NCBI GenBank assembly: GCA_947626125.1
Contig: CANQRA010000009.1
Location: 1 to 32,076, forward strand
Length of the DNA stretch: 32,076 nucleotides
Reading direction: 5' to 3'
From: an uncultured Bacilli bacterium
GTDB lineage: Bacteria > Bacillota_I > Bacilli_A > RF39 > UBA660
Under the pieces are notes generated by a model, which ran no database searches, had not been told where the DNA came from, and saw only the letters and a list, made by a program, of their open reading frames with translations. The position numbers were made by a program, and so were the translations under genes. Shown piece after piece: positions 23,364 through 29,655 of this stretch. Within the stretch, counting starts at the first letter, position 1, and each line of letters begins with the position of its first letter.

Positions 23364-24221
23364 ATGCCAAAAACTAAAAAGTTTTTAACTTTAAAATATG
23401 ACCATATGTTTAAAACTGTTGTCTTGAGTGATGATTTTACTTTTCTAAATAACATCTTATCAGATATCTTAGAAAAAGAAGTATTTGTCGAAAAAGTTAA
23501 ATTAAATGAATTACCAATTGAAGATACTGAAGATAGAGTACAAATTGTTGATGTTTTAGTAAAAACAAGCGATAACGAAGTCATTAATGTGGAAGTTAAC
23601 ATCAATTTTAGTAATTTAATAATGGAAAGAAACTTAATGTACTATTTTTCTTTATTATTGGATAATTATGATAAAAAGGAAGATAATGAAGAAACCAGTA
23701 AAATAATTCAAATTAATTTAAATTTTGAAAAAGTAGGCAAAGTACCCAAAGAAGAAATAAGAATTCATAATATGACATTAGGGAAAGTGGAATACGACAA
23801 TTTTAAAGTAATAAATGTCAATCTTTTAAAGTACAAGAGAATGTGGTATGATAAGAATATAAATGGAGATAAAGAACATTTATATTTAGTAATGTTAACT
23901 TCGAATAAAAACGAGTTAGAAGAATTAGGAAAAAAAGATGCGTTAGCAAAGAAAGTAGGTAGTAAGGTGTTTGAATTAAATGAAGATGAAGAAAAAAGAA
24001 TTCAAATGAAACTGAAAAAAGATGCTCAGTACATTGCCAGAAAAGAAAGAGAGTTGGCGGAAGAAAGAGGCATCAAAAAAGGCCTTAAAAGAGGCATCCG
24101 TGAAAATCAAATTACCACCGTGAAAAGAATGCTACAAAGAAATATGGATATTAAAGAAATTGTTGAAATATCTGGTTTAACCGAACAAGAAATTCAAGAT
24201 ATTCAAGATAAGATGAAATAA
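23364..24221 (+). CDS. Rpn-family recombination-promoting nuclease / PD-(D/E)XK transposase-like protein
   Basis: LKYDHMFKTVV, IVDVLVKTSDNEVINVEVNINF (PD-(D/E)XK-like core), ERNLMYYFSLL, and C-terminal GIKKGLKRGIRENQ...MLQRNMDIKEIVEISGLTEQEIQDI. Confidence 0.85.
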   Translation: MPKTKKFLTLKYDHMFKTVVLSDDFTFLNNILSDILEKEVFVEKVKLNELPIEDTEDRVQIVDVLVKTSDNEVINVEVNINFSNLIMERNLMYYFSLLLDNYDKKEDNEETSKIIQINLNFEKVGKVPKEEIRIHNMTLGKVEYDNFKVINVNLLKYKRMWYDKNINGDKEHLYLVMLTSNKNELEELGKKDALAKKVGSKVFELNEDEEKRIQMKLKKDAQYIARKERELAEERGIKKGLKRGIRENQITTVKRMLQRNMDIKEIVEISGLTEQEIQDIQDKMK

Positions 24222-24259: not shown

Positions 24260-24514
24260 ATGTTTGATTCAGTTATTGAAGAATATTTGACCCAAGATGA
24301 AAAAGAGCAAATAGCAAAAATTAAAAAAGCTTTAGTTTTCAGAAAGAAGGAAAGAGATGACGCTTGGCAAAAGGGATTTGATAGAGGTATTATTGTTAAT
24401 CAATTTCAAATGGTAGAAAGAATGTTAGAAGAAGGTCTGGATATTAAAGCTGTCGCGAAAATATCTAGACTTAGTGAAAAAGACGTAAAAAGAATCAAAA
24501 ATGACCGGTCGTAA
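24260..24514 (+). CDS. Stand-alone Rpn C-terminal-tail protein lacking the nuclease domain
   Basis: KKERDDAWQKGFDRGIIVNQFQMVERMLEEGLDIKAVAKISRLSEKDVKRIK aligns to the C-terminus of the upstream Rpn; RBS AGAGAGAGG. Confidence 0.75.
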   Translation: MFDSVIEEYLTQDEKEQIAKIKKALVFRKKERDDAWQKGFDRGIIVNQFQMVERMLEEGLDIKAVAKISRLSEKDVKRIKNDRS

Positions 24515-24545: not shown

Positions 24546-24592
24546 TTACTCTATAATATAATACAAAAGGCAAAGGCAAAAGGGTGATAATA

Positions 24593-26140
24593 ATGAATTT
24601 AAAAGAATTATTTTCAATAAAGGAAATATTTGAACCTCTTATTTATTATAAGGGAGAAGTATATTTAGGAGATTCTTTATACAATACTAAAGGTAATGAA
24701 CTTGCTTTAAATGCTCGGGAAGTAAAAGGGAAGAATGCTTATTTAGAATTTTTAGAAAAGTATTATTTTAATTATATGCAAGGAGTATTTACCCATTATG
24801 AAAAGGGGCATGTTCCAGATTTAAAATATAGTGTTGTTAATAAAATAACGATAAATGAAAAGGGAAAAAGAGTTTTAAGATTTTGTTTAGCTAATTATTT
24901 ATTTGAAAAATTACATTTTACTGGTTTAAACTTTTGCAGTTTACAAGCCTTTGATGATGCTTATGCGGAGCGTTTAAGTGATGAAGAATTAATTGATATA
25001 GCAAAGGATAAAGTAAGGGAGTGGCGAAGCATTTTACAAAATGTGAAAGATAATGGTAAAAATTCGCCCTATTATGAACAAGTTCAAAGTAATTTTGCGG
25101 AAGATTTAAAAGAGTATAAATTAGAAAATATTTTAAAGGCTAAAATCGCGGTGTATACAGAATTTTTAGTAACTATTAAAAGATATTTATTGCCTTTATT
25201 TAGCAAGGATTTACCTTTAGAGGAATTTGTAGCCTGTTATGACTATGATAAATTATGTTTGTTACTTGTATATGAATTATTAAGAGATTTAAATAATATG
25301 GAATCATTTAATCGCGGAATGTTTTTAGTCGTTCAAAATTATGTTAATGCAGTAAATAGTTTAAGAAAAAAAGGCCATTATAATCCTTCCGTAGTTGTTA
25401 ATAATATTGGTTCTAGTAAAAATTATACTGTTAATGTTGACCAGATAATTTCCATGTATGAAGATTATTTAAAACAATATCCATTAGTGGCAACACCTCC
25501 TTTAAATGAAGATAAAATAAATGAATTATTAAGCGATTATGATTACAGCAGAGAAGAAGTTGATTCGAAAACGGAAGAGGGAGCTAAAAAAATCTTTGAA
25601 CTTTTAGACCAACAAAAAGAAGAACAAATGCTTTTAGCTAAGTGGGAGTTCTTTCCGAAAGGAGAAAGAGTAACTACCAATAACCATGGAATAACTAGTA
25701 GTAAAAGATGGGATATTGATGAAGAAGAATTATTAAGAAGAATGAAAATTGCTCGTGATTTTATTGAAAGTTCTAATTATTACTATGTAACTTTAGGGAA
25801 AGATACTTTCCTTGGTTATATGGCTTATTTATATCGAAATGGTAAAGTTATTTTTATGCGGGATTACACCCAAATAAAAACGAAAAGAGAATTATTGTCA
25901 TCCGGTATATATGTCATGAATTATGAAGATTTTATTAAATTTTCAAGGCTTAGTAAAACTACTTTAATTACTTATCTTAATGATTATCAAAGATATGGAG
26001 TTAAGAGAATATATCATTACAAAAATATGGATGAGACGATTAGTAGATTACAAAAAGAAATTGTTGGTAATGAATATAGAGAACAAGTTAAAAGATTTAT
26101 TGAAAGATTAATTGAAAGTGGGGAACTTTCTAGAAAATAA
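24593..26140 (+). CDS. Uncharacterised protein (about 515 aa)
   Basis: Long ORF with RBS AGGGTG; translationally coupled to the next ORF; no family recognised. Confidence 0.75.
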   Translation: MNLKELFSIKEIFEPLIYYKGEVYLGDSLYNTKGNELALNAREVKGKNAYLEFLEKYYFNYMQGVFTHYEKGHVPDLKYSVVNKITINEKGKRVLRFCLANYLFEKLHFTGLNFCSLQAFDDAYAERLSDEELIDIAKDKVREWRSILQNVKDNGKNSPYYEQVQSNFAEDLKEYKLENILKAKIAVYTEFLVTIKRYLLPLFSKDLPLEEFVACYDYDKLCLLLVYELLRDLNNMESFNRGMFLVVQNYVNAVNSLRKKGHYNPSVVVNNIGSSKNYTVNVDQIISMYEDYLKQYPLVATPPLNEDKINELLSDYDYSREEVDSKTEEGAKKIFELLDQQKEEQMLLAKWEFFPKGERVTTNNHGITSSKRWDIDEEELLRRMKIARDFIESSNYYYVTLGKDTFLGYMAYLYRNGKVIFMRDYTQIKTKRELLSSGIYVMNYEDFIKFSRLSKTTLITYLNDYQRYGVKRIYHYKNMDETISRLQKEIVGNEYREQVKRFIERLIESGELSRK

Positions 26141-26586
26141 TGACCAGAGATTATTTATATGCTTCTTTAATAAGAGATGAAGAAGTTATCAACAAAATTT
26201 TGGCTCTAGATAATGAAATATGTTTTACGAATATTACTTTTGATGATTTATTAACATTATTAAATAGGAATATAGAAATTAAAAATGTAAGAAGGGGAAG
26301 CTTTATAACGGATGGTAGTTTAAATGTCGTTATTCCTTTACTTATAGATTATAGTTTATATATTGATAATTTATTTATTAATGATTATTTAAAGGGAATT
26401 ACTAGTTATTTTATCCAAAAAATCAAAGACTATTATGCTTTAAATAATGAAGATATTAACATTAATTTAATAACTAACGAGCAATATGAAGGACTAACTA
26501 ATATCTATATAATAGGTAACAGAGAATTTATTAATGATATAGCAAGAAAAGTAGCTCAAAGTGTATGTATAGAACTCGATTATTAA
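26140..26586 (+). CDS. Uncharacterised protein (148 aa), coupled to the upstream gene
   Basis: TAATG overlap with the upstream stop; followed by a terminator. Confidence 0.7.
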   Translation: MTRDYLYASLIRDEEVINKILALDNEICFTNITFDDLLTLLNRNIEIKNVRRGSFITDGSLNVVIPLLIDYSLYIDNLFINDYLKGITSYFIQKIKDYYALNNEDININLITNEQYEGLTNIYIIGNREFINDIARKVAQSVCIELDY

Positions 26587-26600: not shown

Positions 26601-26639
26601 CCTTAATTTTTGCATAGATTAAATTAGGGAGTGATGAAT

Positions 26640-27191
26640 TTGTCTAATTATAGAGAAATTGTAACTAAGGCTGTTATTGGGAAAGCGAAAAAAACAAGCA
26701 CAAGTAATTTTAGTTTAGAACCAGAAGAAAAAGCTAATACAGTTTTAGGTTGTTGGGTTATTAACAATACCTTTAATGGGGCGAATAATAATGGTAGTGT
26801 TTTAATTACCGGTTCTTTTGATGTTAATGTTTGGTATTCATATGATAATGATACTAAAACTGCAGTTAGTACTAAAAGATTTAGTTATTCTGATAAAATG
26901 AATGTGCCTTTAAAGAATGATACAACTCTAGATAATAATTCGGAAATTATTGTGCGTAGTTTAAAACAACCAACTGTTACAAATGTTGATGTTAATAATG
27001 GTATTGTTAATTTAACGATTGAAAAAGAATTAGGGGTTGAAATTGTTGGTAATACCAAAGTAAAAATAAGTGTCGAAGATTTAGATGATGATTATGAAGA
27101 ATTAATTGATGAAGAAGAGGAAGAAACGATTGATAACGAAATAAACAATGTAAATGAAGAATATTTAGACACGGAAGTAGTAGATAAGTAA
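26640..27191 (+). CDS. cotE: Outer spore coat protein CotE
   Basis: SNYREIVTKAVIGKAKKTSTSNFSLEPEEKANTVLGCWVINNTF...GSFDVNVWYSYDNDTKTAV, QPTVTNV, acidic C-terminus. TTG at 26640 fits the AGGGAG RBS; ATG at 26634 is an alternative. Confidence 0.92.
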   Translation: MSNYREIVTKAVIGKAKKTSTSNFSLEPEEKANTVLGCWVINNTFNGANNNGSVLITGSFDVNVWYSYDNDTKTAVSTKRFSYSDKMNVPLKNDTTLDNNSEIIVRSLKQPTVTNVDVNNGIVNLTIEKELGVEIVGNTKVKISVEDLDDDYEELIDEEEEETIDNEINNVNEEYLDTEVVDK

Positions 27192-27825: not shown

Positions 27826-29655
27826 ATGATTTATTTACCAAAGGTAAAGACATGTTCACTAATTAGTAAGACACTAAATGCTATTTATGATGTCTATGAA
27901 GAAGAAATAAAAAAAGATAGTCCCCAAAATATTTATATTTATAAAGAATTTACGGATAATGAAAATATTATGAAAGAATTAAATGCTCTAGGTATTTATG
28001 TAATAGAGGAGCTCTCTAAGTTAAATCCTCAAGACATTTTAATAATTACTTATTTAGGCATAGATGAAGATAGTTTAAATTATTTAAATAATAATCATAT
28101 TAAATATATTGATACTACGCATAGTAAAATAGCTAAATTAACTAAATTAATAAAAGAAGAGCAAGAGAAAAATTATCAAATTATTATGGTAGGTAACCAT
28201 GAGTTAAACACGGTTCATAACATTAATTATGTTCATTCATTTAATGAATTAAATGAGCTATCTATAAAAGATAATGTTTTCCTTAGTAAAATGCCTACAT
28301 TTAATTCACAAGAATTTATCAAAATAGCGAATTTTCTTAAAGATAAAACTAAAAACATTTTTATTTATGATAATAAATATCCTTGGACGCAAGAATTTAA
28401 TGATATGTTAGAAAGTTGTCAACATGTAAAAAATGTTTTTAGTATTAATTATCAACATGAAAATTATCCCTGTTTTTATCATTTAGAAGATTTTCTAAAA
28501 TATATCTTAGAAAATAATTATTCTAACGATGAAGATTATGCTTTTATATGTTCTTCCGATACCCCATATAAAGAATTATTAAACTATAAATATTTATTAA
28601 CATTTTTATTGTTCTATAAAAAGTGTTATCAAGAAATAAAAGATAGTCTAAAATTGTTTAACAAATCTTTAAATGTTGATGATAACAAAATTATTAAAGA
28701 TTTTATTAGCGACTTTAATGATTTAAATAGTGATGGCAAATATATAAGAGGAACTTTAATCGCGTTAGGTAAACTCCTAGCAAGTGATAATACGGATAAT
28801 TATGTTCCTCTAGCCACAGCCTATGAAACCATGGAAAGTGCTATTTTAATTCATGATGATATTATCGATAATGCTAAAGTAAGAAGAGGGAAGCCAACTA
28901 TCCCCAAAAGAATCTGTAATACTTATTTAAATAAAAGAAAAAATAATAATTATTATCAAGATACTTTAAAATTAGCTAATTCTGTCGCTATTTGTTTAGG
29001 TGACTATGGTTTATTTGCGGCCAGTAAATTAATTAGTGATTCTTATCAAGATAATTTAACAGAAATCTTAACAGAATATAATGATATAGTTATAAAAACA
29101 ATTAAAGGAGAAATAATTGATGTTTATTTACCTTTTAATGCTAAGTATCAATTTAAAGAAACAACGGAAGAAGATGTTCTTAATATCTATCATTTAAAAA
29201 CTAGTTATTATACCATTATTGGACCTGTTAAATTAGGCTATATATTAGCAAATAAAGAATTACCTAAAAATATTATCAACATTTTAAATAATATTGGCAT
29301 AGCTTATCAATTAAAAGATGATATGTTAGGTATTTTAAGTAATGTTGATACTCTAGGTAAATCAACATTATCTGATATAAAAGAATTTAAACAAACTTTA
29401 TTATATTCTTATATGATGAAATCAGAATATAAAGAAGAATTCTTAAAATATTATGGTAAAAATAATCTAACTAAGAAAGAAGTAAAAAATATTCAAGAAT
29501 TATTAATTAAAGCAGGAGCTATAAATTATAGTGAACTTTATTTAAAAGACTTATATTATAATTCTTTGGAAGAGATAGATAATCTCGATATAAAAGAAGA
29601 ATATAAAGCTCTTTTCAAAGGGTTAATTATTTATTTAAATAGAAGAGAGAAGTAG
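27826..29655 (+). CDS. Degenerate IspH-like domain fused to a trans-polyprenyl diphosphate synthase
   Basis: C-terminal half: GKYIRGTLIALGKLLA, LIHDDIIDNAKVRRGKPT (first Asp-rich motif), YQLKDDMLGILS (second). N-terminal half aligns with IspH by eye: QDILIITYLGIDEDSLNYLNNNHIKYIDTTHSKIAKLTKLIKEEQEKNYQIIMVGNHE. Confidence 0.82.
   Translation: MIYLPKVKTCSLISKTLNAIYDVYEEEIKKDSPQNIYIYKEFTDNENIMKELNALGIYVIEELSKLNPQDILIITYLGIDEDSLNYLNNNHIKYIDTTHSKIAKLTKLIKEEQEKNYQIIMVGNHELNTVHNINYVHSFNELNELSIKDNVFLSKMPTFNSQEFIKIANFLKDKTKNIFIYDNKYPWTQEFNDMLESCQHVKNVFSINYQHENYPCFYHLEDFLKYILENNYSNDEDYAFICSSDTPYKELLNYKYLLTFLLFYKKCYQEIKDSLKLFNKSLNVDDNKIIKDFISDFNDLNSDGKYIRGTLIALGKLLASDNTDNYVPLATAYETMESAILIHDDIIDNAKVRRGKPTIPKRICNTYLNKRKNNNYYQDTLKLANSVAICLGDYGLFAASKLISDSYQDNLTEILTEYNDIVIKTIKGEIIDVYLPFNAKYQFKETTEEDVLNIYHLKTSYYTIIGPVKLGYILANKELPKNIINILNNIGIAYQLKDDMLGILSNVDTLGKSTLSDIKEFKQTLLYSYMMKSEYKEEFLKYYGKNNLTKKEVKNIQELLIKAGAINYSELYLKDLYYNSLEEIDNLDIKEEYKALFKGLIIYLNRREK

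Follow-up and report, generated by a model that had tools for sequence, protein, structure and literature searches.

A gene joining an IspH fold to a prenyl diphosphate synthase

The window (by which we mean the whole stretch of 32,076 nucleotides analysed here) contains, near its end, a 609-residue open reading frame in which an IspH (LytB) fold and an intact-looking prenyl diphosphate synthase are fused in frame. The features along this frame are as follows:

27826..29655, + strand: IspH-like/polyprenyl synthase fusion, 609 aa, the only PF02401 match and the only PF00348 match of the genome
27826..28611, + strand: N-terminal IspH-fold domain, residues 1–262, predicted to be catalytically dead (Pfam LYTB; AlphaFold2 pLDDT 85; Foldseek to IspH)
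27853..27855, + strand: C10, counterpart of E. coli IspH C12, a cluster ligand that is kept (alignment)
28120..28122, + strand: H99 (codon CAT), at the place of cluster ligand C96 (alignment)
28378..28380, + strand: Y185, at the place of cluster ligand C197 (alignment)
28567..28671, + strand: single predicted helix, residues 248–282, from the IspH C-terminus to the first synthase helix (full-length AlphaFold2 model)
28714..29652, + strand: polyprenyl diphosphate synthase domain, residues 297–609 (PF00348; motif residues invariant in 31 sequences)
28855..28869, + strand: first aspartate-rich motif, DDIID, residues 344–348 (alignment)
29317..29331, + strand: second aspartate-rich motif, DDMLG, residues 498–502 (alignment)

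The Pfam LYTB/IspH family matches residues 24–182 (58.5 bits for a cut-off of 24.5, E = 8e-16) and the polyprenyl_synt family (PF00348) residues 301–559 (144.8 bits for a cut-off of 27). The original prediction, made from the letters alone, had recognized a prenyl synthase in the C-terminal half by its GKxxR, DDIID and DDMLG motifs; the Pfam score bears this out, and the motifs lie at G304-K-Y-I-R, 344-DDIID-348 and 498-DDMLG-502. Residues D344, D345, D348, D498, D499, K305, R308, R353, R354, K458 and Q495 are invariant in the 31 synthase sequences aligned. In the AlphaFold2 model of the full-length protein (pLDDT 88, pTM 0.81), helix 248–282 runs without interruption from the C-terminus of the IspH half into the synthase and contains most of a stretch found conserved in the alignments, TPxKExxNYKYLLxFLLFYK. 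This predicted helix would tie the fold of the IspH half to that of the synthase.

Upstream of the fusion, in the same orientation, lies a gene for a CotE-like outer spore coat protein (26634–27188, PF10628, 152.6 bits), followed by rpsP, a KhpA-type KH gene and the fusion itself. Its presence is a hint of possible sporulation, present or past, in this reduced lineage. A cotE-like frame is also found about 640–650 bases upstream of the fusion in relatives with either an intact or a decayed IspH half. Two adjacent frames that precede the CotE-like gene in the window (24584–26140 and 26140–26586, + strand, 518 and 148 aa) have no Pfam matches; relatives G003 and G037 have similar-looking frames ahead of cotE (loci L035 and L065). 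Further upstream are a PD-(D/E)XK nuclease family transposase-type gene (23364–24221, + strand, PF12784) and an 84-aa frame (24260–24514) that resembles the C-terminus of the PF12784 product.

The N-terminal half has the fold of IspH

When the N-terminus was compared as a single sequence with the PDB (phmmer), no match was significant, the best IspH hit having an E value of 0.43; the resemblance to IspH is therefore remote. A profile built from 20 orthologous N-termini, on the other hand, matched the IspH structure 3dnf with an E value of 5e-37. The AlphaFold2 model of residues 1–262 (pLDDT 85, pTM 0.75) gave the same answer: its 12 best matches in the PDB are all IspH structures (E = 7e-11 to 5e-9, TM-scores 0.70–0.78), and the first match to another protein has an E value of only 0.01. 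By both the profile and the model, the domain has the IspH trefoil fold. The likeness to IspH first proposed from an alignment by eye is thus upheld by the Pfam score, by the orthologue profile and by the structural comparison.

The window copy lacks key residues of the reductase

Alignment to intact orthologues (E. coli numbering is used for the catalytic positions) indicates that the triad of cluster ligands is reduced to its first member in the window copy: C12 is kept as C10, C96 is replaced by H99 and C197 by Y185. This agrees with the original prediction, which had seen the first cysteine kept, a histidine in the place of the second and no counterpart of the third. The damage extends well beyond the ligands. 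The residues found at positions H41, H74, H124, E126, T167 and S269 are D, L, L, T, P and D, respectively, and the S225–N227 loop is deleted. The window copy consequently lacks three attributes of an active IspH, namely (i) the three cysteines, (ii) the diphosphate pocket and (iii) E126 and T167. In IspH, the diphosphate pocket is formed by H41, H74, H124, S225, S269, T168, N227 and Q166, and substitutions in the E. coli enzyme are severe, E126Q retaining 0.3% activity and H124A and H124F very low activity (PMC8837944). Because of these published roles of the pocket, E126 and H124, no reductase activity is to be expected of decayed copies, including those in which the cluster ligands persist.

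Judging from its residues, the IspH half of the window protein is non-catalytic as a reductase, as had been proposed: two cluster ligands, the pocket and the proton-donor residues are all absent. The iron–sulfur cluster is probably gone as well in this species. The original case, however, leaned on the cysteines and supposed that close homologues would not retain all three. This part does not hold, since the nearest relatives (G003, G030, G033, G036 and G037) keep the complete triad, but they do so without H41, H74, H124, E126, T167 and the S225–N227 loop; on these grounds the triad is not expected to rescue activity either there or in the window copy, and the predicted loss of activity stands. 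The suggestion that the dead domain might bind HMBPP, IPP or DMAPP found no support and was discarded: the diphosphate pocket is gone, and its residues H41, H74, H124, S225, N227 and S269 were the first to decay.

The fusion is widespread and its IspH half has decayed repeatedly

The same fusion is present in 33 of the 37 other members of the genus that were sampled, as well as in other genera, so that its conservation in relatives is established; neither half was found in the remaining four genomes (G020, G024, G028 and G034). No relatives of the fusion were found on viral contigs. Across relatives, the IspH half grades from an E value of 6e-70 to barely detectable. Twelve members of the genus have a complete-looking IspH half and no upstream pathway (G001, G007, G008, G009, G010, G015, G021, G022, G023, G025, G027 and G035), and T167S in G015 is the sole change among the catalytic residues checked in them. 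The IspH residues examined are also kept in G040 and G052, the S226 position being variable in G040, and three loci outside the genus (L086, L089 and L130) encode full-length, high-scoring IspH halves. The IspH half is decayed in 22 members of the genus, six of which (G013, G016, G019, G026, G029 and G032; 540–561 aa) have lost most of its middle subdomain. Altogether, the lengths of the family form a series of 640, about 610, 540–561, 455–460, 407–425 and ~355 aa. The 455–460-aa forms, which carry a remnant of the domain, and the 407–425-aa forms, which carry a short stub, occur outside the genus, where the IspH domain is trimmed to stubs of 60–100 residues and is therefore dispensable on longer time scales. 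The domain is absent from a sister clade of synthases of ~355 aa.

In the synthase tree, full-length and stub forms make up one clade (SH-aLRT 92), and an independent origin of each fused protein was rejected on this basis. In a tree of 40 sequences, the distribution of intact and decayed states requires six changes (five to six in bootstraps), at least three of which are forced by well-supported branches. Decay on one occasion only is disfavoured for the genus, the grouping of all decayed members in one clade being rejected with p-AU = 0.033, a modest level of support for several losses. The residues lost show the reductase to have died, as far as it can be read from them, in the window species and, through several losses, in other parts of the genus.

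The genus lacks the pathway leading to HMBPP

The host of the window is known from a draft genome of 1.24 Mb in 92 contigs, 90% complete. A profile search of this genome, in which the fusion is the sole LYTB match and the sole polyprenyl synthase, revealed no separate intact ispH, the existence of which the original prediction had wished to see checked. Family searches found neither IspG nor DXR in any of the 38 genomes of the genus, and HMG-CoA reductase was found neither in these nor in any of 100 relatives searched; control searches gave matches where expected in reference genomes such as those of E. coli and B. subtilis. The genomes are all drafts (62–95% completeness), so that these absences rest on many genomes and no closed one. 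DXS was found in 3 of the 38 genomes, UppS in 36 of the 37 searched (G037 was not sampled) and the core proteins of the SUF cluster-assembly machinery in all 38. In short, the absence of IspG and DXR shows that the genus has lost the pathway making HMBPP, yet it has kept the fusion. The cells appear to make undecaprenyl diphosphate, starting from prenyl diphosphates, without a known route to IPP or DMAPP; we therefore infer that they take up precursors. Those relatives that bear a name are assemblies of uncultured Bacilli, Tenericutes or Bacillota, and many of their sample names refer to the rumen or an animal gut.

Stand-alone IspH genes were encountered in a few relatives. G030 has a well-conserved one (L072:3925–4776) beside its decayed fusion, IspG and DXR being absent; its GC content (26.6%, versus 26.1% for the host contig) is consistent with a genuine second copy. 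Outside the genus, G116, G118, G123 and G132 (loci L099, L103, L108 and L118; completeness not given) have a stand-alone IspH and no IspG was found in them, which fits the idea that IspH may be of use on its own. In G045, which is the same as G120, the IspH frame is cut by a TGA near the end of a contig (L068:3846–4583) and a second piece lies on another contig (L069:3880–4002); the gene may be broken, the assembly may be interrupted there, or TGA may be read as an amino acid.

Order of loss and selection in the decayed domain

The order in which residues were lost was read from the 49 columns that are invariant in intact fusions, using 18 decayed sequences; the alignment of the third subdomain is uncertain in the most decayed copies. 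None of the 18 retains an equivalent of H41, H74 or H124, while C12, C96 and C197 persist in 14, 14 and 13 of them, respectively. The 18 sequences are not independent, and a Fisher test of this contrast, which takes no account of common descent, does not yield a usable probability. Counted by lineage, about five keep all three cysteines, namely G012 with a ten-member clade (G000, the window genome itself, excepted), G004, G018, G011/G016 and G013. In the other decayed lineages, some or all of the triad is lost. The alignment thus indicates that the substrate pocket was lost first and the cluster ligands last, the triad generally outliving catalysis; the window copy, with two ligands lost, would represent a further step of decay than its triad-keeping relatives.

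For the IspH half, omega in close decayed pairs ranges from 0.11 to 0.40, with upper 95% bounds of 0.21–0.61. It is 0.05–0.17 for the synthase half of decayed pairs and 0.07–0.19 for intact pairs. The closest pair to the window copy, G000/G003, gives 0.76 and is too diverged to judge. Hence, in decayed relatives, the IspH half is relaxed but not neutral.

Interpretation

The reading we favour, and hold to be reasonably probable, is that the protein formerly had two activities: its IspH half has since lost catalysis and persists as a folded domain rigidly attached to the essential synthase, a decay repeated within the genus. The ancestor would have carried an IspH, which converts HMBPP to IPP and DMAPP, fused to a prenyl synthase consuming these products; the pathway making HMBPP would then have been lost in the genus and the fusion retained. 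Where the IspH half is intact, the species probably obtains HMBPP from neighbouring microbes and reduces it; we know of no described case of HMBPP uptake. The reductase would have died in the window species and, separately, elsewhere in the genus. The dead half would stay folded because it is translated, in the same frame, before the essential synthase, and because of the predicted shared helix. Omega values below 1 point to such a constraint, and retention of the decayed domain may help the synthase to fold or stay stable. The triad probably still holds a cluster in most decayed relatives, either as a structural pin or as a redox-sensitive element. Decayed species would use imported IPP and DMAPP and, as gene content suggests, the synthase presumably runs on scavenged C5 diphosphates and supplies UppS for the undecaprenyl carrier. 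Scaffolding or regulation of chain elongation by the IspH half, put forward in the original prediction, is possible. We regard as rather doubtful the stronger proposal that IspH has turned more than once into a non-catalytic iron–sulfur domain holding or controlling a synthase, with sister species that have a working IspH living on their neighbours' HMBPP.

A regulatory iron–sulfur pseudoenzyme appears unlikely. Here, the domain of most decayed species would still carry a cluster on the conserved cysteines, and its redox or iron state would switch the synthase and thus the supply of cell-wall lipid carrier, the window copy being secondarily clusterless. The triad is indeed retained while every pocket histidine is lost, the decayed domains of G002, G006, G033 and G037 contain exactly three cysteines, which are those of the triad, G013 and G016 keep it despite a largely deleted middle subdomain, and the SUF machinery is present. 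A structural role, however, explains the same pattern, and the triad could bind another metal. Besides, the triad is partly or wholly lost and the synthase kept in the window copy, in G014/G031, in the G019/G026/G029/G032 clade and in L101; therefore the cluster is not required for the synthase.

Less likely still is a neutral relic, that is, an IspH half without any role, which survives because upstream stops or frameshifts would be lethal and which is worn down by missense changes and in-frame deletions. The graded loss of length across the family, from 640 aa to the ~355 aa of the forms without the domain, is what this reading expects, as is an omega that is, in decayed pairs, 1.4–4 times that of the synthase; in the middle subdomain of the G033/G036 pair, omega is 0.59 [0.25–1.66], compatible with neutrality. 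For the domain as a whole, however, omega falls clearly short of 1 in all close decayed pairs; the cysteines of the triad, moreover, have been retained selectively, and structure prediction still gives the domain an IspH fold.

That the window protein still works as an IspH, with a changed set of ligands (C10, H99 and one more residue), is hardly credible: C10 is kept, and H99 is a possible iron ligand, as histidines can ligate iron in other proteins, but the equivalents of H41, H74, H124, E126, T167, S225–N227 and S269 are all absent and so are the upstream enzymes. In E. coli, moreover, E126 and H124 mutants are nearly dead (PMC8837944). An assembly or binning artefact, for which the draft state of the genome (92 contigs, 90% complete) might speak, is equally implausible given that 33 further members of the genus, assembled separately, carry this fusion in frame, and that other loci of the genus have a cotE-like gene upstream at a comparable distance.

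With the IspH half read as a folded, non-catalytic partner of the synthase, the genus offers a natural series of enzyme halves (intact, then decayed, then trimmed) along which the losses can be put in order. It raises the question of whether a bacterium can live with IspH alone by scavenging HMBPP, a compound that activates human γδ T cells, and that of the purpose of an iron–sulfur cluster once the chemistry is gone.

Comparison with known systems

Word searches of the open-access literature (subscription journals being outside their coverage) found no report of an IspH–prenyl synthase fusion or of an IspH pseudoenzyme. With the HMBPP reductase IspH/LytB (PF02401; 3dnf, 3ke8 and 3szu), the window copy shares the fold, the domain order and the C10 ligand, and relatives such as G003 and G033 keep all three ligands; it differs by the loss of the pocket, of the proton-relay residues and of two cysteines, by the C-terminal synthase and by the absence of the upstream pathway. 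The synthase half has the motif residues of polyprenyl diphosphate synthases (PF00348) of the type with a DDxxG second motif, to which the window protein adds an N-terminal IspH-derived domain of 250 residues. IspH also precedes a C-terminal partner in the fusion with ribosomal protein S1 (NCBIfam PRK00087, a model named bifunctional), but there IspH is of the active type and the partner lies outside isoprenoid metabolism, unlike in the window fusion. Partial MEP pathways are described in Listeria and Mycoplasmoides gallisepticum, where the early enzymes are kept and the last ones are missing (PMC13001223); the pathway is likewise incomplete in the window genus, but here only the last enzyme remains, and then dies. 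Finally, in the representatives described of the reduced gut Tenericutes RF39 and RFN20, the MEP genes are present, ispA is mostly missing and bactoprenol synthesis is decaying (PMC7301438). The window genus, also composed of reduced gut Bacilli, is the mirror case: it has the synthase and no MEP pathway.
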